Assembly (NCBI RefSeq): GCF_002266435.3
Contig: NZ_CP029426.2
Location: 682,001 to 746,000, forward strand
From: Bradyrhizobium amphicarpaeae
GTDB taxonomy: Bacteria > Pseudomonadota > Alphaproteobacteria > Rhizobiales > Xanthobacteraceae
DNA: 64,000 nt
Reading direction: 5' to 3'
Shown here: positions 45,806-56,341 of the stretch, one piece after another
Layout of the letters: the number at the start of each line of letters is the position of its first letter
How positions within the stretch are numbered: position 1 is the stretch's first letter
Program-made: the position numbers and the translations under genes
The notes under the pieces: model-generated
What the model saw: only the letters and a program-made list of their open reading frames with translations
What the model was told of the DNA's origin: nothing
Database searches by the model: none

Positions 45806-46690
45806 CTACAGCGACGGCGCGAGTGACGCTTTCAACAGTGTCAGCAGCGCCTGCACCGCGGCGGCGTTGCGCCGCCGCTCGGGGATTGCGGCCTTCACCC
45901 ACAATTCCGGAATCGGAAAGTCGCGCAGCACCGGCTTGAGCGTGCCGTCCCGCAACGCGTCCGCGACGAGGTAATGCGAGAGCAGCGCGATCCCGTTGCC
46001 GGCGATGGCGCTGCGCGCCAGCACGTGTCCCTCGTTGGAGGAGAGCAGCGGGCTGACCTGGATGCTGATGCGGCCTCGCGGTCCGTCAAAAATCCATTCC
46101 GGGCCGGTCGGCAGAAAGCTGAGGCAGCGATGCTCGACGAGATCGCGCGGGTGCTTTGGCGTGCCGTGTTTCTTCAGATAGGCGGGTGAGGCGCACAGCA
46201 GCCGCTTCAGCGCGCAGAGCGGCTCGTCGACCACGCCGCCGAACGAATGCGGGAAGGCGCCGATGGCGATGTCGAATCCTTCGGTGACGGGATCGACCGG
46301 GCGATCGATCAGCACGATGTCGAGTTTCAGCTTCGGGTTCTGGGTCTGGAACGCGCTGAAAGCGTCCGCGAGCCGAGCCACGGTCAGCGAGGTCGGCGCC
46401 TTGATGCGTAGGTGATCGACGAGATCGTGGCCCTTCTCGCCCATGCGCGAGAGCAGGTCGGTGGCATCGGTCACCACGCCGCGTGCGCGATGCACATAGC
46501 GCTGTCCGGCCTCGGTCAGCCGCAACTGCCGGGTCGAGCGATGAAACAGCGGTGTGCCGATGCGCGTCTCCAGCTGCGTGACGCGCTTGGCCACGACCGA
46601 AGTCGAAACGTTGAGCTTTCGCGCGGCGGCTGAAAAGCCGGCCGCATCCGCGGTGGCAAGGAAGGCCTGGAGGTTCACGAGAATATCCAT
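45806..46690 (-). CDS. LysR family transcriptional regulator
   Basis: 294 residues. N-terminal winged helix: LQAFLATADAAGFSAAARKLNVSTSVVAKRVTQLE; C-terminal periplasmic-binding-like effector domain. Divergent from the FAD oxidoreductase/ABC transporter operon with 111 bp between starts, the usual layout for a LysR regulator and its target. Confidence 0.93.
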   Translation of the reverse strand: MDILVNLQAFLATADAAGFSAAARKLNVSTSVVAKRVTQLETRIGTPLFHRSTRQLRLTEAGQRYVHRARGVVTDATDLLSRMGEKGHDLVDHLRIKAPTSLTVARLADAFSAFQTQNPKLKLDIVLIDRPVDPVTEGFDIAIGAFPHSFGGVVDEPLCALKRLLCASPAYLKKHGTPKHPRDLVEHRCLSFLPTGPEWIFDGPRGRISIQVSPLLSSNEGHVLARSAIAGNGIALLSHYLVADALRDGTLKPVLRDFPIPELWVKAAIPERRRNAAAVQALLTLLKASLAPSL

Positions 46691-46801
46691 CTCGACCTTT
46701 CTCGATTCGCGACAACTGATCGCGTATTTTGGTGGATTGTAGCGTCTCTCGCATTAATTCATAGTCGAACCCAAGCAAGAGATTTTGGGAAGGAACGCGC
46801 C

Positions 46802-48166
46802 ATGCGGGCCATGACGATCGAAGAACCGGCACGACAGGTGCCGCTCTATGGCGAATATGAAGTCGTCGTGCTCGGCGGCGGCCCGGCCGGCATCGTCGCC
46901 GCGGCGTCAGCGGCGCGCGCGGGGCGAAAGACGCTTCTGATCGAGCGCTACGGCTTCCTCGGCGGCATGGGCACCGCTGCCGGTGTCACCAATTTCTGCG
47001 GCCTGCATGGCAATGTCCATGGCGAGCATCGGCGGCTGGTGCAGGGCATGGCGTCCGAGCTCTTGGCGCGGATCGATCGGTTGGGCGGCCTGAACACGCC
47101 GCATCTGATCCTCGGCAAGGTCTTTGCCCAGGCCTATGACACCGCGGCCTACAAGATCGCGGCCGACCAACTGCTGGCGAGCCACAATGTGCATATCCTC
47201 TTCCACGCGCTCGGCGCGGGCGTGGTGATGAATGGCGATCGCGGCATCGACGCGCTGATGGTCGAGACCAAAGCCGGCCGGCAGGCGGTGCGATCGGAGA
47301 TCTTCATCGACTGCTCCGGCGACGGCGACCTCGCGGTCTGGGCCGGTGCGCCGTTCGAGATCGGCGATGAGCACGGCCATCCGATGTATCCCTCGATGAT
47401 GCTCCGGCTCAACGGTATCGACCCTGACAGGGCCGGCGAGGCCTGGCGCACCATTCCGCAATTGATGGAAAAGGCGCTTGCCGCCGGCACCCACACATTC
47501 CCGCGCAAAAGCGCCATCGTGCGACCGCAGAAATCCGGCATCGAGTGGCGGGTGAACTTCACGCAAGTGGCGCGCGAGGACGGCCACGCCATCAACGGCG
47601 TCGAGCCCGACGATCTCACCCGCGGCGAGATCGAGGGCCGCAAGCAGGCGCTCGCGGCGTTCGAGTTCCTGCGCACCGTGCCGGGCTTCGAAAAATCCTA
47701 CATCGTGGACCTGCCGCCGCAGCTCGGCATCCGCGAGACCCGCCGCATCAGGGGCGGCTACCAGCTCAGTGGCGAGGACGTGCTCGGCTGCGCCTCCTTC
47801 GAGGACTCCATCGGCGTCAATGGCTGGCCGATCGAGGCTCACGTTCCCGGCGACGTCGTCTTCACTTTTCCGCCGATCCCGGAATCCCGCGGCTATAACG
47901 AGCTGCCGTATCGGATGCTGGTGCCCGAAGGTGTCGACAATCTGCTGGTCGCCGGCCGTTGCGCCTCGATGACCCATGAGGGCCAATCTGCGGCGCGGGT
48001 CTCCGGTGCCTGTTTCGTGATGGGGGAGGCGGCCGGTTCCGCCGCCGCGCTGGCGCTCTCCGGAAACCGGATTCCACGCGACATCCCCATTGAAAAGTTG
48101 CAGGAAACGTTGAAACAACAGGGCGCCTTCATCGGACGGGACCAGCCGGTGCCCGAAGGCCTGTAA
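46802..48166 (+). CDS. FAD-dependent oxidoreductase
   Basis: 454 residues. N-terminal dinucleotide motif VVVLGGGPAGIVAAASAARAG, then ERYGFLGGMGTAAGVTNF (FAD_oxidored type), and a C-terminal FAD contact VAGRCASMTHEGQSAARVSG. This family (PF12831) contains largely uncharacterised oxidoreductases. First gene of a unit with an NMT1-type transporter (36 bp gap), so it may act on the imported ligand. Confidence 0.9.
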   Translation: MRAMTIEEPARQVPLYGEYEVVVLGGGPAGIVAAASAARAGRKTLLIERYGFLGGMGTAAGVTNFCGLHGNVHGEHRRLVQGMASELLARIDRLGGLNTPHLILGKVFAQAYDTAAYKIAADQLLASHNVHILFHALGAGVVMNGDRGIDALMVETKAGRQAVRSEIFIDCSGDGDLAVWAGAPFEIGDEHGHPMYPSMMLRLNGIDPDRAGEAWRTIPQLMEKALAAGTHTFPRKSAIVRPQKSGIEWRVNFTQVAREDGHAINGVEPDDLTRGEIEGRKQALAAFEFLRTVPGFEKSYIVDLPPQLGIRETRRIRGGYQLSGEDVLGCASFEDSIGVNGWPIEAHVPGDVVFTFPPIPESRGYNELPYRMLVPEGVDNLLVAGRCASMTHEGQSAARVSGACFVMGEAAGSAAALALSGNRIPRDIPIEKLQETLKQQGAFIGRDQPVPEGL

Positions 48167-48201
48167 CGGACTGCAAGATAAACGACGGCGGAGGAAGCAG
48201 G

Positions 48202-49206
48202 ATGATCGGAATTGCGCGGCTTGCGGCAGCCAGTCTCTTGGCGATCGCGGCGATGGGGACGGCCCACGCCGAGGATGCGCTGAAGGCCAGGATCGGCGTG
48301 CTTCGCCTGTCGTCCTCCGCGCCGGTCTTCATCGCGCAGGACAAGGGCTATTTTCGCGAGGCAGGCCTTGAGGTCGAGCTGAAATTCTTCGACGCGGCGC
48401 AGCCGATCGCGGTCGCCACGACCTCGGGCGATGTCGATTTCGGCATCACGGCCTTCACCGCCGGCCTCTACAATCTCGCCGGCAAGGGCGTGCTGAAGGT
48501 GATCGGCGGCATGAGCCGCGAGAAGGCCGGCTATCCCCTGATCGGCTATTTTGCCAGCAACAACGCCTACGCGGCCGGATTGAAGACGCCGAAGGACCTC
48601 GCGGGCAAACGCGTGGCGATGACGCAGGTCGGCTCCTCCTTCCACTATTCGCTCGGACTGCTCGCCGACAAATACGGCTTCAAGCTCGCGGACGTGAAGA
48701 TCGTGCCGCTGCAATCGCTGTCCAATGCCGCCGCCGCGCTGAAGGGCGAGACCGTCGATGCGGCCCTGCTGCCGATCTCGACGGCGCGAAAGCTCACGGA
48801 TGAAGGCGGCGCGAAATTCCTGGGCTGGGTCGGCGACGAGACGCCGTGGCAGCTGGGTGCGGTGTTCGCCTCGCCGAAGACGCTGACCAACAAGGCGCTG
48901 GTGACGAAGCTGCTCGGCGCCCTGGCGAAGGCCGACCGCGAATATCACGACGTCATCCTCGCCGCGATGAAGGACGGTGTTGCGCCGATCAACGGGCAGA
49001 CGAAACCGCTGCTGGAGATCATCGCAAAGTACACCAACCTCCCGGTCGAGCAGGTGGTCGGCAATTGCGCCTATATCGATCCCGACGGCAAGCTCGACGT
49101 GAAGAACGTCGACAACCAGATCAAATGGCTGCAGGAGCAGGGCTTCGTCGACAAGGGTTTTGACGCGACCGCGATCGTCGCGAAGGACTATGTGAAGGCG
49201 GATTGA
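48202..49206 (+). CDS. NMT1/SsuA-type ABC transporter binding protein
   Basis: 334 residues. Signal peptide (LAAASLLAIAAMGTAHA), then LRLSSSAPVFIAQDKGYFREAGLEVEL, the hallmark of NMT1/SsuA/TauA receptors. Periplasmic; ligand may be an organosulphur, pyrimidine-like or aromatic compound (inference). ATPase and permease genes follow after a palindromic repeat. Confidence 0.92.
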   Translation: MIGIARLAAASLLAIAAMGTAHAEDALKARIGVLRLSSSAPVFIAQDKGYFREAGLEVELKFFDAAQPIAVATTSGDVDFGITAFTAGLYNLAGKGVLKVIGGMSREKAGYPLIGYFASNNAYAAGLKTPKDLAGKRVAMTQVGSSFHYSLGLLADKYGFKLADVKIVPLQSLSNAAAALKGETVDAALLPISTARKLTDEGGAKFLGWVGDETPWQLGAVFASPKTLTNKALVTKLLGALAKADREYHDVILAAMKDGVAPINGQTKPLLEIIAKYTNLPVEQVVGNCAYIDPDGKLDVKNVDNQIKWLQEQGFVDKGFDATAIVAKDYVKAD

Positions 49207-49229
49207 TGCGACGCGCACCACTCTCTCCC

Positions 49230-49365
49230 CGTCACCCTGAGGTGCCTGTCTTGCGGCTTGCCGCAAGACAGGCCTCGAAGGGCGAGCGGTCCGGATGCGG
49301 CGGGGCCGCCCATCCTTCGAGGCTCGACTTGCGGCAAGCCGCAAGCCGAGCACCTCAGGATGACG
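49230..49365. repeat. Palindromic repeat, family 1 copy C, inside an ABC operon
   Basis: GTCACCCTGAGG, then a perfect 13-bp stem with TT loop (arm CCTGTCTTGCGGC at 49245-49257), CTCGAAGGGCGA, CCATCCTTCGAGGCTC, an 8-bp stem (CTTGCGGC/GCCGCAAG), and CACCTCAGGATGAC. Both hairpins are perfectly paired but differ in sequence from the other copies. Confidence 0.85.
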
Positions 49366-49387
49366 AATCGAGAGTTGAAGGTGCCGC

Positions 49388-50161
49388 GTGGACCTGATCG
49401 CCAACCACATCTCCCACCGCTTCGGGGACCTCGCCGTGCTCGACGACGTCTCGTTCACCGTCAGCGCGGGCGAGGTGGTGGCGATTGTCGGGCCCTCCGG
49501 CTGCGGCAAGAGCACGCTGCTGTCGATCCTCGGCGGGCTGTTGCAGCCGACATCCGGCGCGCCCGAGCTGCGCGGCGCACCGCCGGCGGGCAGCCTCAAT
49601 CCGCTCACCTTCGTGTTCCAGGATTTCGCGCTGCTGCCCTGGGCGACGGTCGAGGAGAATGTCGAGTTTCCGCTGCTTCATGCGCAACTCTCCGCAACCC
49701 AGCGCCGCGCGCTGGTCGAGGACGCCCTCCGTCGCACCGGGCTGACCGATTTTCGCAAGACCTATCCCAAGCAGCTCTCCGGCGGCATGCGCCAGCGCGT
49801 CGGCATCTCGCGCGCGCTTGCGGTGAAGCCGGCCATTCTGCTGATGGACGAGCCGCTGTCGGCGCTGGATTCGCAAACCCGTGAGCTGCTGATGGAGGAC
49901 TTCATCCGCCTGCTCGCCGACGGCGGCATGGGCGCGGTCTATGTCACCCATAATCTCGAAGAGGCGGCGCGGCTCGCCGACCGCATCGTGGTGCTGTCGC
50001 GGCGCCCGGGGCGCATTCGCGAGGTCGTGACCGTGCCGCTGTCGCGCGCCGAACGTGGCGAGTCGGTGGCGCGTGAAAGGCTGCTGGCGCTGCAGAACCA
50101 GATCTGGTCGCTGATCCGCAACGAGGCGATCGATGCCGAGCGCGAGGTCCAGCATGCTTGA
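49388..50161 (+). CDS. ABC transporter ATPase (SsuB/TauB/NrtD-like)
   Basis: 257 residues from GTG 49388 (GAAGG upstream). Walker A GPSGCGKSTLL, signature LSGGMRQRVGISRALA, Walker B ILLMDEPLSALD, and an H-loop His in YVTHNLEEAARLADR. Energises uptake of the ligand bound by the receptor at 48202. Overlaps the permease gene by 8 bp. Confidence 0.94.
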   Translation: MDLIANHISHRFGDLAVLDDVSFTVSAGEVVAIVGPSGCGKSTLLSILGGLLQPTSGAPELRGAPPAGSLNPLTFVFQDFALLPWATVEENVEFPLLHAQLSATQRRALVEDALRRTGLTDFRKTYPKQLSGGMRQRVGISRALAVKPAILLMDEPLSALDSQTRELLMEDFIRLLADGGMGAVYVTHNLEEAARLADRIVVLSRRPGRIREVVTVPLSRAERGESVARERLLALQNQIWSLIRNEAIDAEREVQHA

Positions 50162-50975
50162 TCGCTCGGCGACTGACATTGCGAAGGACGGAGCGACGCG
50201 GCGCGTGCGGTTTCGAGGCGCCGGCTTCGTGCCCGCGAGCAGTCGCTATGGCGGCTGGCTCGCGCTCGCCCTGGTGATCGCGCTCTGGCAGGCGGCGGGC
50301 AGCACCGGCCTTGTCAATCCGCTGTTCCTGCCGGCGCCGTCAGCGATCGTGCGGGCGATCTACCAGCTCGCGATCTCAGGCGCGCTCTGGCAGCATCTCT
50401 CGGCGTCGCTGCTGCGCATCGGCGTCGGCTGGCTGCTCGGCACCGCAGCCGGTGTGGTGGTCGGCTTTGCCATCGGCCTGTCGCGGCTGGCGCGGAGTGT
50501 CGGCATCACCTTCATTTCAGCGCTGTTCCCGATCCCGAAGATCGCGCTGCTGCCGCTGCTCATCCTCTGGCTCGGCATCGGCGAAGAGCCGAAGATCGCG
50601 ACCATTGCGCTCGGGGTGTTCTTCTCCACGGCGATCTCGGTCTACAGCGGCGTCGACGCCGTGCCGCGTAACCTGATCCGCATGGCACAGAGTTTCAACG
50701 TTCCCTTCGCGACCATCGTGCGCAAGGTGATCTGGCCGGGCGCGCTGCCGGCGATCCTCGCCGGCTTCCGCATCACGGCCTCCGTGGCGCTGCTCCTCGT
50801 CGTCAGCGCCGAGATGATCGGCGCGCAATACGGCATCGGTGCCTTCGTGCTGCAGGCCGGAAACCTGATGCAGACGGACCAGCTCCTCGCAGGCGTGGTG
50901 ATCCTGTCGGTGTTCGGGTTGGCGGTCGGCAAGGTGATCAATCTTCTCGAAATCAGGCTGTTGCACTGGCGTTAG
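50154..50975 (+). CDS. ABC transporter permease (SsuC/TauC-like)
   Basis: 273 residues from ATG 50154. About six membrane segments and the BPD_transp_1 coupling loop (SFNVPFATIVRKVIWPGALPAILAGFRI, EAA-like). Inner-membrane channel of the transporter. Ends near a family 2 repeat. Start chosen at the ATG after GAGGTCC; an upstream in-frame ATG at 50133 would overlap the ATPase more. Confidence 0.93.
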   Translation: MLDRSATDIAKDGATRRVRFRGAGFVPASSRYGGWLALALVIALWQAAGSTGLVNPLFLPAPSAIVRAIYQLAISGALWQHLSASLLRIGVGWLLGTAAGVVVGFAIGLSRLARSVGITFISALFPIPKIALLPLLILWLGIGEEPKIATIALGVFFSTAISVYSGVDAVPRNLIRMAQSFNVPFATIVRKVIWPGALPAILAGFRITASVALLLVVSAEMIGAQYGIGAFVLQAGNLMQTDQLLAGVVILSVFGLAVGKVINLLEIRLLHWR

Positions 50976-51088: not shown

Positions 51089-52129
51089 TCACGCATTCCC
51101 GCGATCTTCCCTGAATAGATCCAGCTTCTGCTGCACCGGGCGATCCGAGAAGCTGAACAGCACGGCATCCTCGTCCGCCTCGTGCGTCACCCATTGCCAG
51201 CTCGGCACCACGAACAGATCGCGCGGGCCCCATTCGAACACGGCGTCGCCGATCCGGCTGCGGCCACGGCCTTCGATCGGGCAGAACACGGTGGCGTCGG
51301 TCGAACGATAGCGCGCGGTCTTGAATCCTTTGGGCAAGAGCTGGATGAAGGTGCCGATGGTCGGCATCGCGAAGTCGCCGGTCTCGGGGTTGCTGAATTT
51401 CAGCTTCAGCCCGTGGCAGGCGTCCCACTCCTGGCTGGTGCGGGCCTTCTCCAGCGCTTCGCGCGTATAGGCGTAGGGATAACTGAAGATCGGCGAGGTC
51501 TTCGAACTCCGCTTGACGTCGACCGGCAGCAGATTGTGGCCGTAGCGCGCAAAGCTGTCGCCGACAGGCTTCGTGATCTTCTGCTGGTCGTCCTTCGAGC
51601 CTTCCGCAAAGGAGCAGTCGAAAAACTGCACCAGGGGAATGTCGAGGCCGTCGAGCCAGAACATCGGCTGATCGGTCTCGTTGGAATGATCGTGCCAGGT
51701 CATCGACGGCGTGATGATGAAGTCGCCTGGCTCCATCGCGGTGCGCTCGCCGTCCACCGCGGTATGGGCGCCCTTGCCCTCGAGCACGAAGCGCAGCGCA
51801 GACTGGCTGTGCCGGTGGGCGGGCGCGACGTCGCCGGGCACCACCATCTGCACGCCGGCATAGAGCGAGGTCGTGATTTTCGATTGCCCGCGCAGGCCGG
51901 GATTTTCCAGCACCAGCACGCGCCGCTCGGCTTCCTTGGCCGTGATCAGTCGGCCTGCCTCCGTCATGTAGTCGCGGATGACGTCGAATTTCCAGAGGTG
52001 CGGCCGGCAGGCGCTCTTCGGTTCCGGCGTGATCAGGTCGCTCATCACCGTCCACAGCGCGGTGAGATTCTCGCCGTCGATCTTCTTGTAGAAGGCCTCG
52101 CGTTCCGGCGTCTTGGTCACGGCTTCCAT
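51089..52129 (-). CDS. Gentisate 1,2-dioxygenase
   Basis: 346 residues from ATG 52129 (GGGAG upstream). Bicupin fold: the first barrel has HRHSQSALRFVLEGKGAHTAVDGE (Fe ligands His-x-His and Glu/His) with PSMTWHDHSN. A second barrel follows. LWTVMSDLITPEPKSACRPHLWKFDV at the N-terminus is characteristic of gentisate dioxygenases. It cleaves gentisate to maleylpyruvate. Divergent from the maiA-type isomerase, which would handle the product. A shared motif at 52155-52179 lies 26 bp upstream. Confidence 0.94.
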   Translation of the reverse strand: MEAVTKTPEREAFYKKIDGENLTALWTVMSDLITPEPKSACRPHLWKFDVIRDYMTEAGRLITAKEAERRVLVLENPGLRGQSKITTSLYAGVQMVVPGDVAPAHRHSQSALRFVLEGKGAHTAVDGERTAMEPGDFIITPSMTWHDHSNETDQPMFWLDGLDIPLVQFFDCSFAEGSKDDQQKITKPVGDSFARYGHNLLPVDVKRSSKTSPIFSYPYAYTREALEKARTSQEWDACHGLKLKFSNPETGDFAMPTIGTFIQLLPKGFKTARYRSTDATVFCPIEGRGRSRIGDAVFEWGPRDLFVVPSWQWVTHEADEDAVLFSFSDRPVQQKLDLFREDRGNA

Positions 52130-52154
52130 GGCGGCGCTCCCGTTCGTTTTGTTG

Positions 52155-52192
52155 ATTGACAGTATACTGACGATCTAGGTAGCGTCAATGTG
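52155..52192. promoter_or_regulatory. Candidate MarR operator, copy 1
   Basis: An imperfect 20-bp palindrome centred on AGTATACT (ATTGACAGTA with TACTGACGAT; 8 of 10 pairs) continues into ATCTAGG. The same 25 bases recur at 56303-56327 with two differences, and similarity extends over TAG...AATGTG. It lies between gentisate dioxygenase and the maiA-marR unit. TATACT could be the -10 of the minus-strand promoter. Confidence 0.75.
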
Positions 52193-52221
52193 ACGAACAA
52201 TAGCGAAAAGGGAGGGTTTCG

Positions 52222-52851
52222 ATGAAGCTGCACGGCTATTTCCGCTCCAGCGCCGCCTATCGGGTGCGGATCGCGCTGAACCTGAAGGGTCTCGGGGCCG
52301 AGCATCTGCCGCATCATTTGCGCAAGGGCGAGCAATGCGCGCCCGCCTATCTCGCCATCAACCCGCAAGGCCTTGTACCGGCGCTGGAAAACGGCGGTGC
52401 GGTGCTGACGCAATCGGTCGCGATCATCGAGTGGCTCGACGAGACCCACCCCAACCCGCCGCTGCTGCCGAAGGATCCGCTGCGGCGCGCCAAGGTGAGG
52501 GCGTTCGCGCTGGCGATCGCCTGCGACACCCATCCAGTGCAAAACCTGAAAGTGCTGGCGCGGCTGCGCGAGATCGGGCTGGCCGAAGAGAAGGTCCAGG
52601 ACTGGGCGGCGTGGGTCAACCGCGAGGGACTGTCGGCCTGCGAGACGCTGATCAGGGACGAGCCCGGGCCGTTCTGCTTCGGCGATGCGCCGACGCTGGC
52701 CGATCTCTGCCTGGTGCCGCAGCTCGCCAATGCCCGTCGTTTCGGCGTCGATGTCTCGGCCTATCCGCGCCTGCTCGCGGCGGAAGCTGCTGCCAAGGTA
52801 ATCGCCGCGTTTGCCGATGCCGCACCGGAGAAGCAGCCCGATGCCGAGTAA
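52222..52851 (+). CDS. maiA: Maleylacetoacetate/maleylpyruvate isomerase (zeta-class GST)
   Basis: 209 residues with AGGGAGGG upstream. N-terminal GST domain has the zeta motif SSAAYRVRIALNLKG and the glutathione contact LTQSVAIIEWLDE; C-terminal domain includes ALAIACDTHPVQNLKVL. Zeta GSTs isomerise maleylacetoacetate or maleylpyruvate to the fumaryl form using glutathione. Beside gentisate dioxygenase the natural substrate is maleylpyruvate (inference). Overlaps marR. Confidence 0.93.
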   Translation: MKLHGYFRSSAAYRVRIALNLKGLGAEHLPHHLRKGEQCAPAYLAINPQGLVPALENGGAVLTQSVAIIEWLDETHPNPPLLPKDPLRRAKVRAFALAIACDTHPVQNLKVLARLREIGLAEEKVQDWAAWVNREGLSACETLIRDEPGPFCFGDAPTLADLCLVPQLANARRFGVDVSAYPRLLAAEAAAKVIAAFADAAPEKQPDAE

Positions 52852-53353
52852 GGCTTCTCCACCCATCACGATCGACGCGGTCTATGCCGCGCCGGGCTAT
52901 CTGTTCCGGCGCATGCAGCAGATCGCGGTCTCGATCTTCATGGAGGAGTGCAAGGCATTCGATCTCACACCGGTGCAATATGCAGCGCTGATCGCGATCC
53001 ACACCCATCCCGGCATCGACGCGACACGGCTGTCGGCGGTGATCGCCTTCGACCGCTCCACGCTCGGCAGCGTGATCGAACGTCTCCAGGCCAAGGACTA
53101 TGTCGAACGCAAGCCGGCCCCCGAGGACAAGCGGATCAAGCTGCTCCATCTGACCAGATCGGGCGCCGCGATCCTGCGCGAGATCATCCCCGCGGTCGAA
53201 CGCGCCCAGGCGCGCATGCTGGAGCCGCTCAAGCCCGCCGACCGCAAGACGTTGATGGGGCTGATGTCGCAGCTCGTCGATCTCAACAACGAGGCGTCAC
53301 GTGTGCCGCTGCGGGCCGAGGACGCGCTGGAGCATCTGGGGAAGACGGGGTGA
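52841..53353 (+). CDS. MarR family transcriptional regulator
   Basis: 170 residues from ATG 52841, overlapping the end of the isomerase gene by 11 bp. Winged-helix: VQYAALIAIHTHPGIDATRLSAVIAFDRSTLGSVIERLQAKDYVER with the wing KPAPEDKRIKLLHLT. MarR repressors of aromatic loci are commonly released by aromatic acids or their CoA thioesters. The likely targets are the paired motifs at 52155 and 56303. Confidence 0.92.
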   Translation: MPSKASPPITIDAVYAAPGYLFRRMQQIAVSIFMEECKAFDLTPVQYAALIAIHTHPGIDATRLSAVIAFDRSTLGSVIERLQAKDYVERKPAPEDKRIKLLHLTRSGAAILREIIPAVERAQARMLEPLKPADRKTLMGLMSQLVDLNNEASRVPLRAEDALEHLGKTG

Positions 53354-53391
53354 GGGAGGTGAGGAAGGCGCCGCTGTTGCAAGAATTGTGG

Positions 53392-53492
53392 TGTCATTCC
53401 CCGCGGAGGCGGGGAATCCAGTACGCTGCGGCCTGTCAGTTCAATCACAACTGTCTCGGAGTACTGGATCGCCCGCCTTCGCGGGCGATGAC
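53392..53492. repeat. Palindromic repeat (TCATTCCCCGCGGAGGCGGGGAATCCAG type)
   Basis: Two hairpins: the CCCCGC/GCGGGG stem at left and GCCCGC/GCGGGC at right, with ATCCAGTAC and GTACTGGAT as inner inverted arms. Lies between convergent marR and the CoA ligase gene. Confidence 0.85.
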
Positions 53493-53538
53493 CGCGGTTG
53501 TGTGGCGGCGTGAGTTGCGCTACTCGCCGCGGCCGTCC

Positions 53539-55152
53539 TTACATCCGCAGCAACGCCTGTCGATCGATCTTCCCCGTGCCCGTCTTCGGCAGTTCGTCGG
53601 TGAAGATCACTTCGCGCGGATATTTGTAGGGCAGGAGCTTGCCCTTGACGTAATCCTGTAACCGCCGCGTCGCATCGTTGTGGTCGATCGCGCGGCTGTT
53701 CATCACCACCACCGCCTTCAGCGTCATCCGGCGGTCCGGCAGTTCGGCGGCGAATACCGCGCATTCGCGGATGTCGGGGTGGTCGGCAAGGCACAGCTCG
53801 ACTTCGAGCGGGTAGACCCACTGTCCCGAGATCTTGATGAGATCGTCGGCGCGGCCGCGGAAGAAGTGGAAGCCGTCGGCATCGCGGATGAAGCGGTCGC
53901 CGGTGTAGATCCAGCCGCCTTCGCGAATGGTCTCGGCAGACTTTTCGGGCCGGTTCCAGTACAGCGGCGTGTTGGAATCGCCGCGCACCCACAAGATGCC
54001 TTCCTCGTTGTCGCCGACGTTGCGACCATCCTTGTCGCGCAGCGCCAACTCATAGCCGGGCACGCGCAGGCCGGCGGCGCCGAGCTTCTTCTGCTCGGGC
54101 CTGTTGGAGAGATAGATGTGCAGCACCTCGGTCGAGCCGAGGCCCTCGACGATCTCCAGGTCCGTGAGCGTCTTCCAGCCGTTGAAGACCTCCGCCGACA
54201 GCACTTCCGCAGCCGAAAGCGACATGCGCAGCGACGAGAAATCGGTCTTGTTCGCCCCCTCGGCCTTGGTCAAGGACGTGTAGAGCGTCGGCAGACCGAA
54301 GAAGACCGTCGGCTTGTACTGTTCGATCGCCGAGAAGATCGTGGCGGGCTTCGGCTGGCCCGGCAGCAGCAGCGTTGCGGCACCGGCTGAGAACGGGAAG
54401 GTGACGGAGTTGCCGAAGCCGTAGGCGAAGAAGATCTTCGGCACGGAGAAGCAGATGTCATCGGGCGTCAGCTTCAGCACGTTCTGCGCAAAGGCGAGCT
54501 CACTATAGGCCATGTCGTGCTGGAGATGCACGATGCCCTTGGGGCGGCCGGTCGAGCCGGACGAGTACATCCAGAACGCCATCTCGTTGCGATGGGTGTC
54601 CGCTTCCGCCAGATCGGCCGGGAATTGCGCGAGCCAATCCGCCGCCGCAAACGCGCTCGGCGCGGCGTGATTGCCCGCCTCTCCATTGACGACGATCAGC
54701 GTCCGCAGGCGCGTGTCCTTGCAAGACTCTGCATTGAAGCGGCCACAGAACTCGGCCTCCGCCACCGCAATCTCAGCTCCGGAATCGGCGAGATAGAATT
54801 GCAGCAGGTCCGGCGGCGTCAGCGTGTTGATCAGCAGCGGCACGAAGCCGGCGCGCACCGCGCCGAAGAACGCGGCCGGGTAGGCCGGTGTGTCGTCGAG
54901 AAACAGCAGCACACGGTCGCCGCGCTTCAGGCCGAGTGACGCAAAGCCGTTGCCCCAGCGGCAAGCCTCGTCGCAGAGCTCGGCATAGGTCCGCGTGCCG
55001 GCCGGACCCATGAGCGCGATCCTGTCGCCACGGCCCTTGGCAAGATTGTCGAACAGCACGCGGCTGGCGTTGTAAGTTTCAGGAACGGCAAAGCCGATCT
55101 CGCGCGCGCCCCCGCTGTCGGCGGGCACCTGGTCGAAAATCTGGTTGCTCAT
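53539..55152 (-). CDS. Benzoate/salicylate-type aryl-CoA ligase
   Basis: 537 residues. ANL superfamily: YSSGSTGRPKGIVHLQHDM P-loop, EGLGSTEVLHIYLSNRP, FRGRADDLIKISGQWVYPLEVE hinge and catalytic Lys in LPKTGTGKIDRQAL. The STEVLHIYLSNRP and VPKIFFAYGFGNS features are typical of benzoate- and hydroxybenzoate-CoA ligases. The substrate is likely salicylate or another 2-substituted benzoate, since its ATG overlaps the stop of a salicylyl-CoA hydroxylase-like gene (inference). Confidence 0.9.
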   Translation of the reverse strand: MSNQIFDQVPADSGGAREIGFAVPETYNASRVLFDNLAKGRGDRIALMGPAGTRTYAELCDEACRWGNGFASLGLKRGDRVLLFLDDTPAYPAAFFGAVRAGFVPLLINTLTPPDLLQFYLADSGAEIAVAEAEFCGRFNAESCKDTRLRTLIVVNGEAGNHAAPSAFAAADWLAQFPADLAEADTHRNEMAFWMYSSGSTGRPKGIVHLQHDMAYSELAFAQNVLKLTPDDICFSVPKIFFAYGFGNSVTFPFSAGAATLLLPGQPKPATIFSAIEQYKPTVFFGLPTLYTSLTKAEGANKTDFSSLRMSLSAAEVLSAEVFNGWKTLTDLEIVEGLGSTEVLHIYLSNRPEQKKLGAAGLRVPGYELALRDKDGRNVGDNEEGILWVRGDSNTPLYWNRPEKSAETIREGGWIYTGDRFIRDADGFHFFRGRADDLIKISGQWVYPLEVELCLADHPDIRECAVFAAELPDRRMTLKAVVVMNSRAIDHNDATRRLQDYVKGKLLPYKYPREVIFTDELPKTGTGKIDRQALLRM

Positions 55153-56288
55153 GCCTCGTCTCCGCCGTTCCTGGCGGCCTCGTAACGCGCCATGAAGCCC
55201 GGCGACATGTGGCGCAGGCGTGCATCGTCGATGCGGCCGGAGCGAGTGATGTAGCTATAGGCGAAGTCCATCAGGCCCTGCTGCATGTGCTGGGCAAATT
55301 GCTCGTACCAGAAGGCGCTGGTGCGCGCCGCGTTGACCAGTTTCTGCACCACGGGCTTCCGCGCTGCCTGATAGCGGTGCAGCGCGGTCGCAAGATGTGC
55401 ATCCGATTCCAGTGCCTTGACCAGCGCAATAGCGTCCTCGATCGCGAGTCGGGTGCCCGAGCCGATCGAGAAATGCGCGGAATGCAGGGCATCGCCGATC
55501 AGCACCATGTTCTTGAACGACCAGTGCTCGTTCCAGACCCAGGGAAAGTTGCGCCAGACCGATTTGTTGGAGACGAGGCAATGGCCGCCGAGCGTGTCGG
55601 CAAACACCTCTTCGCAGACGCCCTTGGATTGCTCGACGTCCTTGTAGGCGAAACCATAGGCCTGCCAGGTCGCGTGGTCGCATTCGACCAGGAAGGTGCT
55701 CATGGCCGGCGAGTAGCGGTAGTGATGCGCGTTGAAGGCGCCGCGATCGGTCTTCACGAAGGTCTGCGACAGCGTGTCGAACCGCTTCGAGGTGCCGTAC
55801 CAGACGAACTTGTTGGAGGAGTAGGACAGCGAGGTGCCGAAATCACCTTCGAAGGTGCGGCGCACCAGCGAGTTCAAGCCGTCCGCGGCGACGATCAGAT
55901 CATATCCGTTGAGCTGGTCGACGGCCTGAATCTGCGTATCGAAGCGCGGCGTGACGCCGACGTCGAGCGCGCGCTGCTGCAGGAACCGCAGCAGCTCGAG
56001 CCGCCCGATCGAGGAGAAGCCGACCCCGTCGATGGCGACGCTGTCGCCGCCGAGGCTCAGCGTGATGTTCTCCCAGCTCTCCATGTGCGGCGCGATCGCG
56101 TCGACCGTCTCGGGGTCGTCGGCGCGCAGGAATTCCAGCGCCTGGTCGGAGAACACGACGCCAAAGCCCCAGGTCGCGTCGGCCGGGTTCTGCTCGAACA
56201 GGTCGACCTGATCCTCGGGATGACGCCTCTTCCAGAGATAGGCGAAGTAGAGCCCACCGGGCCCCCCGCCAATCACGGCGATCCGCAA
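55149..56288 (-). CDS. Salicylyl-CoA 5-hydroxylase-like FAD monooxygenase
   Basis: 379 residues from a TTG start with GGGAGG upstream. N-terminal FAD motif VIGGGPGGLYFAYLWKRRHP, the second FAD motif IGDALHSAHFSIGSGTRLAIEDA, and GRLELLRFLQQRA identify the aryl-CoA hydroxylase family. This family includes Streptomyces salicylyl-CoA 5-hydroxylase (SdgC) and the N-terminal half of 2-aminobenzoyl-CoA monooxygenase. It would hydroxylate a ring CoA thioester at C5. A stand-alone single domain, without the reductase half of the two-domain anthraniloyl-CoA enzyme. Confidence 0.88.
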   Translation of the reverse strand: MRIAVIGGGPGGLYFAYLWKRRHPEDQVDLFEQNPADATWGFGVVFSDQALEFLRADDPETVDAIAPHMESWENITLSLGGDSVAIDGVGFSSIGRLELLRFLQQRALDVGVTPRFDTQIQAVDQLNGYDLIVAADGLNSLVRRTFEGDFGTSLSYSSNKFVWYGTSKRFDTLSQTFVKTDRGAFNAHHYRYSPAMSTFLVECDHATWQAYGFAYKDVEQSKGVCEEVFADTLGGHCLVSNKSVWRNFPWVWNEHWSFKNMVLIGDALHSAHFSIGSGTRLAIEDAIALVKALESDAHLATALHRYQAARKPVVQKLVNAARTSAFWYEQFAQHMQQGLMDFAYSYITRSGRIDDARLRHMSPGFMARYEAARNGGDEA

Positions 56289-56302: not shown

Positions 56303-56341
56303 ATTGACAGTATACTTACTATCTAGGGGTAGACTAATGTG
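56303..56341. promoter_or_regulatory. Candidate MarR operator, copy 2
   Basis: ATTGACAGTATACT...ATCTAGG repeats the 52155 motif (23 of 25 positions), 15 bp upstream of the monooxygenase start. The minus-strand TATACT could be a -10 element, so binding would cover the promoter. Confidence 0.75.

Follow-up and report, generated by a model that had tools for sequence, protein, structure and literature searches.

A probable MarR-controlled gene cluster for converting salicylate to gentisate through coenzyme A thioesters in Bradyrhizobium amphicarpaeae

We analysed a 64,000-nucleotide stretch of the Bradyrhizobium amphicarpaeae genome (NCBI RefSeq assembly GCF_002266435.3, contig NZ_CP029426.2, positions 682,001 to 746,000 of the forward strand; hereafter the window, in whose numbering coordinates are given) and, within it, a five-gene cluster at 51089..56288, which probably encodes a MarR-controlled module that converts salicylate to gentisate through coenzyme A (CoA) thioesters. 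In the proposed pathway, an aryl-CoA ligase would form salicylyl-CoA from salicylate, ATP, and CoA, a single-component FAD monooxygenase would hydroxylate salicylyl-CoA at C5 to give gentisyl-CoA, and a thioesterase encoded elsewhere would release gentisate. A dioxygenase would then open the gentisate ring to yield maleylpyruvate, a zeta-class glutathione S-transferase (GST) would convert this to fumarylpyruvate, and an FAH-family hydrolase, also encoded elsewhere, would produce fumarate and pyruvate. This type of pathway is known, and the cluster is a variant of it found across the genus, distinguished by its MarR gene, by an element repeated at two promoters, and by two enzymes not encoded in the block.

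An earlier note on this DNA, made from the sequence alone, had proposed that five genes are clustered here, and all five were found, each with family evidence. The gentisate 1,2-dioxygenase gene (51089-52129, minus strand; TIGR02272 gentisate_1_2, 630 bits against a cut-off of 442) is divergent from a pair of overlapping plus-strand genes, encoding a zeta-GST-type glutathione-dependent maleylpyruvate isomerase (52222-52851; TIGR01262 maiA, 262 bits against a cut-off of 171; best Protein Data Bank (PDB) match the maleylpyruvate isomerase 2jl4, E 2e-55) and a MarR-family regulator (52811-53353; PF12802/PF01047), the true start of which is not fixed. The gene for a benzoate-CoA-ligase-family aryl-CoA ligase (53539-55152, minus strand; TIGR02262 benz_CoA_lig, 476 bits against a cut-off of 375) and that for a single-domain, salicylyl-CoA 5-hydroxylase-like FAD monooxygenase (55149-56288, minus strand, TTG start) overlap by 4 nt (55149-55152) and can be read as one minus-strand operon. 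The dioxygenase and the maleylpyruvate isomerase both lie inside the cluster, as expected of a pathway of the CehGHI type (ligase CehG, hydroxylase CehH, and thioesterase CehI).

The arrangement is conserved. In the 80 closest related loci, which span 7.5 to 21.1 kb and in 63 cases reach 21 kb or more, the monooxygenase gene is accompanied by the ligase in 76/80, MarR in 76/80, the dioxygenase in 75/80, and the isomerase in 75/80, so the clustering is not due to chance. All but two of these loci (78/80) came from records titled Bradyrhizobium, the others from records titled Bradyrhizobiaceae and “Frankia sp. RB7”; the cluster in the latter (L071) shares 90-96% identity with the window proteins, and this record is probably mislabelled or contaminated. 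The cluster is close to genus-wide in Bradyrhizobium: among 48 genomes of the genus, including that of B. amphicarpaeae itself, 46 carried the monooxygenase at 76% identity or more; it occurred in two pieces in genome G024 and had no close match in G041. The dioxygenase was present in 47, again not in G041.

Alignments of the dioxygenase-isomerase intergenic gap (76 rows) and of the sequence preceding the monooxygenase gene (81 rows) revealed a conserved block common to both, ATTGACAGTATACT[G/T]AC[G/T]ATCTA. In the window, this 23-bp element, a probable MarR operator, is located on the plus strand at 52155..52177 (ATTGACAGTATACTGACGATCTA), between the dioxygenase gene and the isomerase-marR pair, and at 56303..56325 (ATTGACAGTATACTTACTATCTA), 14 bp upstream of the start of the monooxygenase gene. 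When up to 3 mismatches were allowed, the window contained 2 copies, against 0 in 100 shuffles; at the same tolerance, the first 21 bp matched only these 2 sites in the 7.03-Mb genome (a single contig of 7,025,930 bases), and a reversed control pattern gave 0 genome sites. On the monooxygenase side, 80/80 loci contain the element within 5 mismatches: it is exact in 54 and has one mismatch in 20 (74 together), two in 1, four in 3, and five in 2. On the dioxygenase-isomerase side, it occurs within 4 mismatches in 75/75 loci that allowed the starts of both genes to be located (35 exact, 18 with one, 6 with two, 14 with three, and 2 with four). None of the 80 loci gave a third copy at up to 5 mismatches. 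A −10-like TATACT sits within the first element, and a promoter scan gave 2 sigma-70-like sites against 0.9 (standard deviation 1.1) in shuffles, no better than chance. The confinement of the element to the two promoters of the cluster suggests that its operons form a single probable MarR regulon, and the paired element is probably new here. From the position of its gene, MarR would be the protein that binds the 23-bp sites; acting on both, it would jointly regulate the dioxygenase gene, the operon of monooxygenase and ligase, and the isomerase-marR operon that encodes it, and would probably be relieved by an aromatic acid or its CoA ester.

The route to gentisate through CoA thioesters suggested in the earlier note is supported by sequence similarity and by the phylogenetic trees. 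The monooxygenase is 53% identical to an Agrobacterium tumefaciens protein annotated as CehH (salicylyl-CoA hydroxylase), and the ligase is 54% identical to one annotated as CehG (salicylyl-CoA ligase). In a 30-row tree, the monooxygenase fell within a 21-row clade with CehH (support 98/96), and the fused anthraniloyl-type enzymes, that of B. amphicarpaeae included, lay outside a 24-row group (100/99) containing the window protein. The branching order within the CehH clade was not resolved; a sister position to A. vitis appeared only in an earlier tree and was lost once rows were added. The ligase fell within a 13-row clade with CehG (97/97), separate from the ligases of anthraniloyl-type clusters, in a tree with long branches, of which the program warns. 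The FAD motifs of the monooxygenase (GGGPGG, D136, and D266) are present, and its best PDB matches were VioD. No salicylate 1-hydroxylase above the cut-off was found in the B. amphicarpaeae genome (best 169 bits against 446). On these comparisons, the substrate of the ligase is probably salicylate.

Anthranilate (2-aminobenzoate), which would be processed via 5-hydroxyanthraniloyl-CoA, has in its favor that the same genome encodes a fused PRK08255 enzyme (1140 bits against a cut-off of 1078), the N-terminal flavoprotein half of which is 39% identical to the window monooxygenase. However, the latter (379 aa) aligns only with positions 1-382 of the 768 of PRK08255, i.e., with the N-terminal half (402 bits against the full-length cut-off of 1078); the C-terminal reductase domain of anthraniloyl-CoA monooxygenase/reductase, the old-yellow-enzyme-type second half of the fused enzyme, is not present in it, and it belongs to a different clade. 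The fused gene lies elsewhere in the genome in its usual context, near ligase, enoyl-CoA hydratase, SDR, and acyl-CoA dehydrogenase genes, and the last three families were not among the ten proteins neighboring the window monooxygenase that were scanned with Pfam. In addition, the dioxygenase scored 630 bits on the gentisate model against 260 on the 5-aminosalicylate model (cut-off 650). Anthranilate was thus rejected as the main substrate because a fused anthraniloyl-type enzyme, which with its neighbors probably provides another route for anthranilate, is encoded elsewhere in the genome, and we regard this alternative as very improbable. The preference for salicylate over anthranilate expressed in the earlier note therefore stands, but the single-domain structure on which it had been based is a weak argument alone, because NCBI also calls the fused enzyme “salicylyl-CoA 5-hydroxylase”; the tree and the gene context appear to carry the point.

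A further alternative is a 4-hydroxybenzoate route with an NIH shift, in which the ligase would form 4-hydroxybenzoyl-CoA and the monooxygenase would hydroxylate it at position 1, giving gentisyl-CoA. PhgABC of Brevibacillus reportedly degrades 4-hydroxybenzoate in this manner, with carboxyl migration via the 1-hydroxylation of 4-hydroxybenzoyl-CoA, and both the reaction logic and the enzyme classes match those reported. A hotdog-fold protein of the genome, described below, is also nearest to 4-hydroxybenzoyl-CoA thioesterase. On the other side, 4-hydroxybenzoate has its own route, because two PobA proteins above the cut-off are encoded in the genome and already serve it, and the ligase and monooxygenase group with CehG and CehH. 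We therefore consider 4-hydroxybenzoate an unlikely substrate, and salicylate the probable one.

The dioxygenase is the sole TIGR02272 match in the genome; its best solved match is PDB 2d40 (E 3e-117), and the Fe ligands H105/H107/H146 are present. According to one report (PMC10306065), the carboxylate binders of salicylate dioxygenase (SDO) are Arg83, Gln108, Arg127, and His162. These correspond to R69, Q94, R113, and H148 in the window dioxygenase, in which all four are kept, and Asp174 of SDO corresponds to D160. The retention of the carboxylate-binding residues suggests that free gentisate is the likely substrate of the dioxygenase, and gentisyl-CoA must then be hydrolysed. Were gentisyl-CoA itself the ring-cleavage substrate, the thioesterase would not be needed, which would fit the occurrence of a CehI-like thioesterase in 0/80 loci and of only a 30% relative in the genome. 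Nevertheless, the dioxygenase is identical at 10/10 compared positions, which include the carboxylate-binding residues, to the dioxygenases of three thioesterase-carrying Bradyrhizobium clusters, and the cluster of G024 contains a 3-hydroxybenzoate 6-monooxygenase, a source of free gentisate. Direct cleavage of gentisyl-CoA was disfavored on account of the retained residues, and its probability is very low. In G024, the gene for the 3-hydroxybenzoate 6-monooxygenase (L150:4547-5728, 569 bits against a cut-off of 459), the product of which is free gentisate, lies inside the same cluster, in which the salicylyl-CoA-type monooxygenase gene is in two pieces; this enzyme makes the G024 cluster a gentisate hub.

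The earlier note had also described a gentisyl-CoA thioesterase and a fumarylpyruvate hydrolase as missing from the block, and neither gene is located there. With four queries for each at E 1e-5, neither a thioesterase nor an FAH match was found in the 80 related loci. The genome search suggested in the note yielded candidates elsewhere for both enzymes, that for the thioesterase being weak. The CehI query found only a hotdog protein at genome position 6378491 (30%), the gene of which spans 6378467-6378898, and a tol-pal YbgC protein (33%). The closest solved structure to the former is 4-hydroxybenzoyl-CoA thioesterase (E 3e-15), and its gene follows TRAP-transporter, acyl-CoA-synthetase (PRK12582, 738 bits, below the cut-off of 777), and SDR genes, with a PobA gene approximately 7.5 kb away; we take these surroundings to be a hydroxycinnamate cluster. 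A CehI-like hotdog protein (30-33%) occurs in 47/48 genus genomes, not in G041, but its co-occurrence with the cluster is weak evidence, because the G041 genome is small (4.3 Mb). The 30% hotdog protein is the best, though unproven, candidate for a borrowed thioesterase. For the hydrolase, the FAH query from the Ceh cluster found a 56% relative at genome position 4968588, in a gene spanning 4968576-4969277, the best solved match of which is a “putative fumarylpyruvate hydrolase”; 47/48 genus genomes have this protein at 83% or more, and in G043 it is in two pieces. A second FAH gene in the B. amphicarpaeae genome (50%; L127) lies beside IclR, binding-protein, and flavoprotein genes.

Several observations weigh against the salicylate pathway as proposed, or against parts of it. 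The names CehG and CehH of the A. tumefaciens proteins used for comparison come from annotation, and the ligase motifs AYG and LHI are common to CehG and benzoate-CoA ligase and so are no proof of salicylate. The ligase is missing beside the monooxygenase in four of the 80 loci. In L035, L069, and L077, MarR directly follows the monooxygenase, no ligase remnant was found by blastn at E 1e-3, and the monooxygenase, MarR, isomerase, and dioxygenase are retained at 90-96% identity; in L064, what comes after the monooxygenase is unrelated DNA, which runs to the contig end 1.56 kb on. In L133 and L148, a 52% monooxygenase is paired with an unrelated ligase type, so the substrate may vary in the wider family. 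Trp104 of SDO, reported to be important for gentisate, is replaced by Tyr90, as it is by Tyr in the Escherichia coli enzyme 2d40. The best CehI-like protein of the genome, at only 30% identity, is one of 23 PF03061 matches. The gene of the FAH candidate is surrounded by UDP-glucose epimerase, MsbA-like, and LpxO-like genes and also occurs in G041, a genome without this cluster; it is therefore not necessarily part of the pathway. The genome-wide scan for the 23-bp element found no copy at the hotdog or FAH candidate, nor any co-regulated thioesterase or hydrolase. Finally, the literature search turned up no assay in Bradyrhizobium, and the titles and opening parts of abstracts searched contained no description of this cluster in the genus.

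The ligases of L133 and L148 share 47-49% identity with a Variovorax ligase; these two loci also encode a dioxygenase 49-50% identical to that of the window and a thioesterase-like protein (26%), and their clusters possibly serve another entry acid.

Salicylate is a plant defense hormone and signal that restricts infection, and rhizobia entering roots encounter it. If the cluster degrades salicylate, this ability would be nearly universal, and under one regulator, in Bradyrhizobium, a genus of legume symbionts. A more speculative and rather doubtful extension is that nearly all Bradyrhizobium possess a core MarR-controlled salicylate sink that lacks its own thioesterase and borrows one of the 4-hydroxybenzoyl-CoA type from a hydroxycinnamate pathway. 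If so, the breakdown of a defense hormone would rely on an enzyme shared with the catabolism of plant phenolics. The cluster also bears on whether a CoA-thioester pathway can share the thioesterase of another pathway.

Adjoining the cluster, the window contains LysR, FAD-dependent oxidoreductase, and SsuABC-like transporter genes (45806-50975). In the related loci, the binding protein was found beside the cluster in 71/80, the flavoprotein in 70/80, and LysR in 56/80, counts that are lowered because several loci end early. This block was considered as an uptake system for the cluster but is not proposed as one, since it has no 23-bp element and the resemblance of its binding protein to SsuA/taurine-type proteins is only distant.

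The remark in the earlier note that few alphaproteobacterial examples are established is out of date, given the cehG/cehH/cehI plasmid of A. tumefaciens, the CoA-mediated salicylate route of Rhizobium sp. X9, for which Zhou et al. 2021 (Mol Microbiol 116:783) is cited, and similar clusters on plasmids of Agrobacterium, Sinorhizobium, Rhizobium, Phaeobacter, and Pseudosulfitobacter. In A. tumefaciens Sta004 pAt1 (NZ_CP048525), where the cehGHI names come from annotation, the ligase, single-domain hydroxylase, gentisate dioxygenase, and zeta-GST isomerase occur together, as in the window. In contrast, the window block lacks the CehI thioesterase, the FAH protein, and the DinB-type isomerase; its regulator is MarR rather than IclR, its dioxygenase is of another lineage (36%), and its monooxygenase and ligase genes overlap, unlike those of the A. 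tumefaciens cluster. Of the 10 plasmid loci in the monooxygenase clade, a gentisate-type dioxygenase was found in 9/10, FAH in 9/10, and a zeta-type isomerase in 7/10 within the stretch fetched, where L114 has none of the three. A CehI-like match was present in 8/10 (a fragment only in L114, and 26% in L133), and none was found in L113 or L134; the absence of CehI from the cluster is therefore not unique to Bradyrhizobium. Within the same order, L151 has a thioesterase and FAH and no dioxygenase in the stretch, L153 has the monooxygenase, ligase, and dioxygenase only, and L152 has the monooxygenase and ligase only. Hydroxylase-ligase fusions of approximately 915 aa are encoded at L113:8983-11727, L114:8986-11727, L151:5798-8551, and probably L141:7926-10727; in L113, the fused gene is followed by an alpha/beta hydrolase gene.

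Outside the Alphaproteobacteria, the SdgC route of Streptomyces sp. WA46 includes, according to PMC13215587, the same conversion of salicylyl-CoA to gentisyl-CoA as proposed here, and an actinobacterial relative (Streptantibioticus, L138) with 40% identity branches in the opposite half of the monooxygenase tree. Within Bradyrhizobium itself, a second cluster is found in G017, G018, and G034, comprising a divergent thioesterase, monooxygenase (67-69%), ligase (60-61%), dioxygenase (69-70%), and FAH (69%). The thioesterase is CehI-like (53-54% to that of A. vitis), and no match to the window MarR or isomerase was found in these stretches; the G017 cluster has an MFS transporter gene between the ligase and dioxygenase genes, and that of G018 has an IclR gene beside the thioesterase gene. 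These three genomes therefore hold a core version without a thioesterase beside an accessory version with it.

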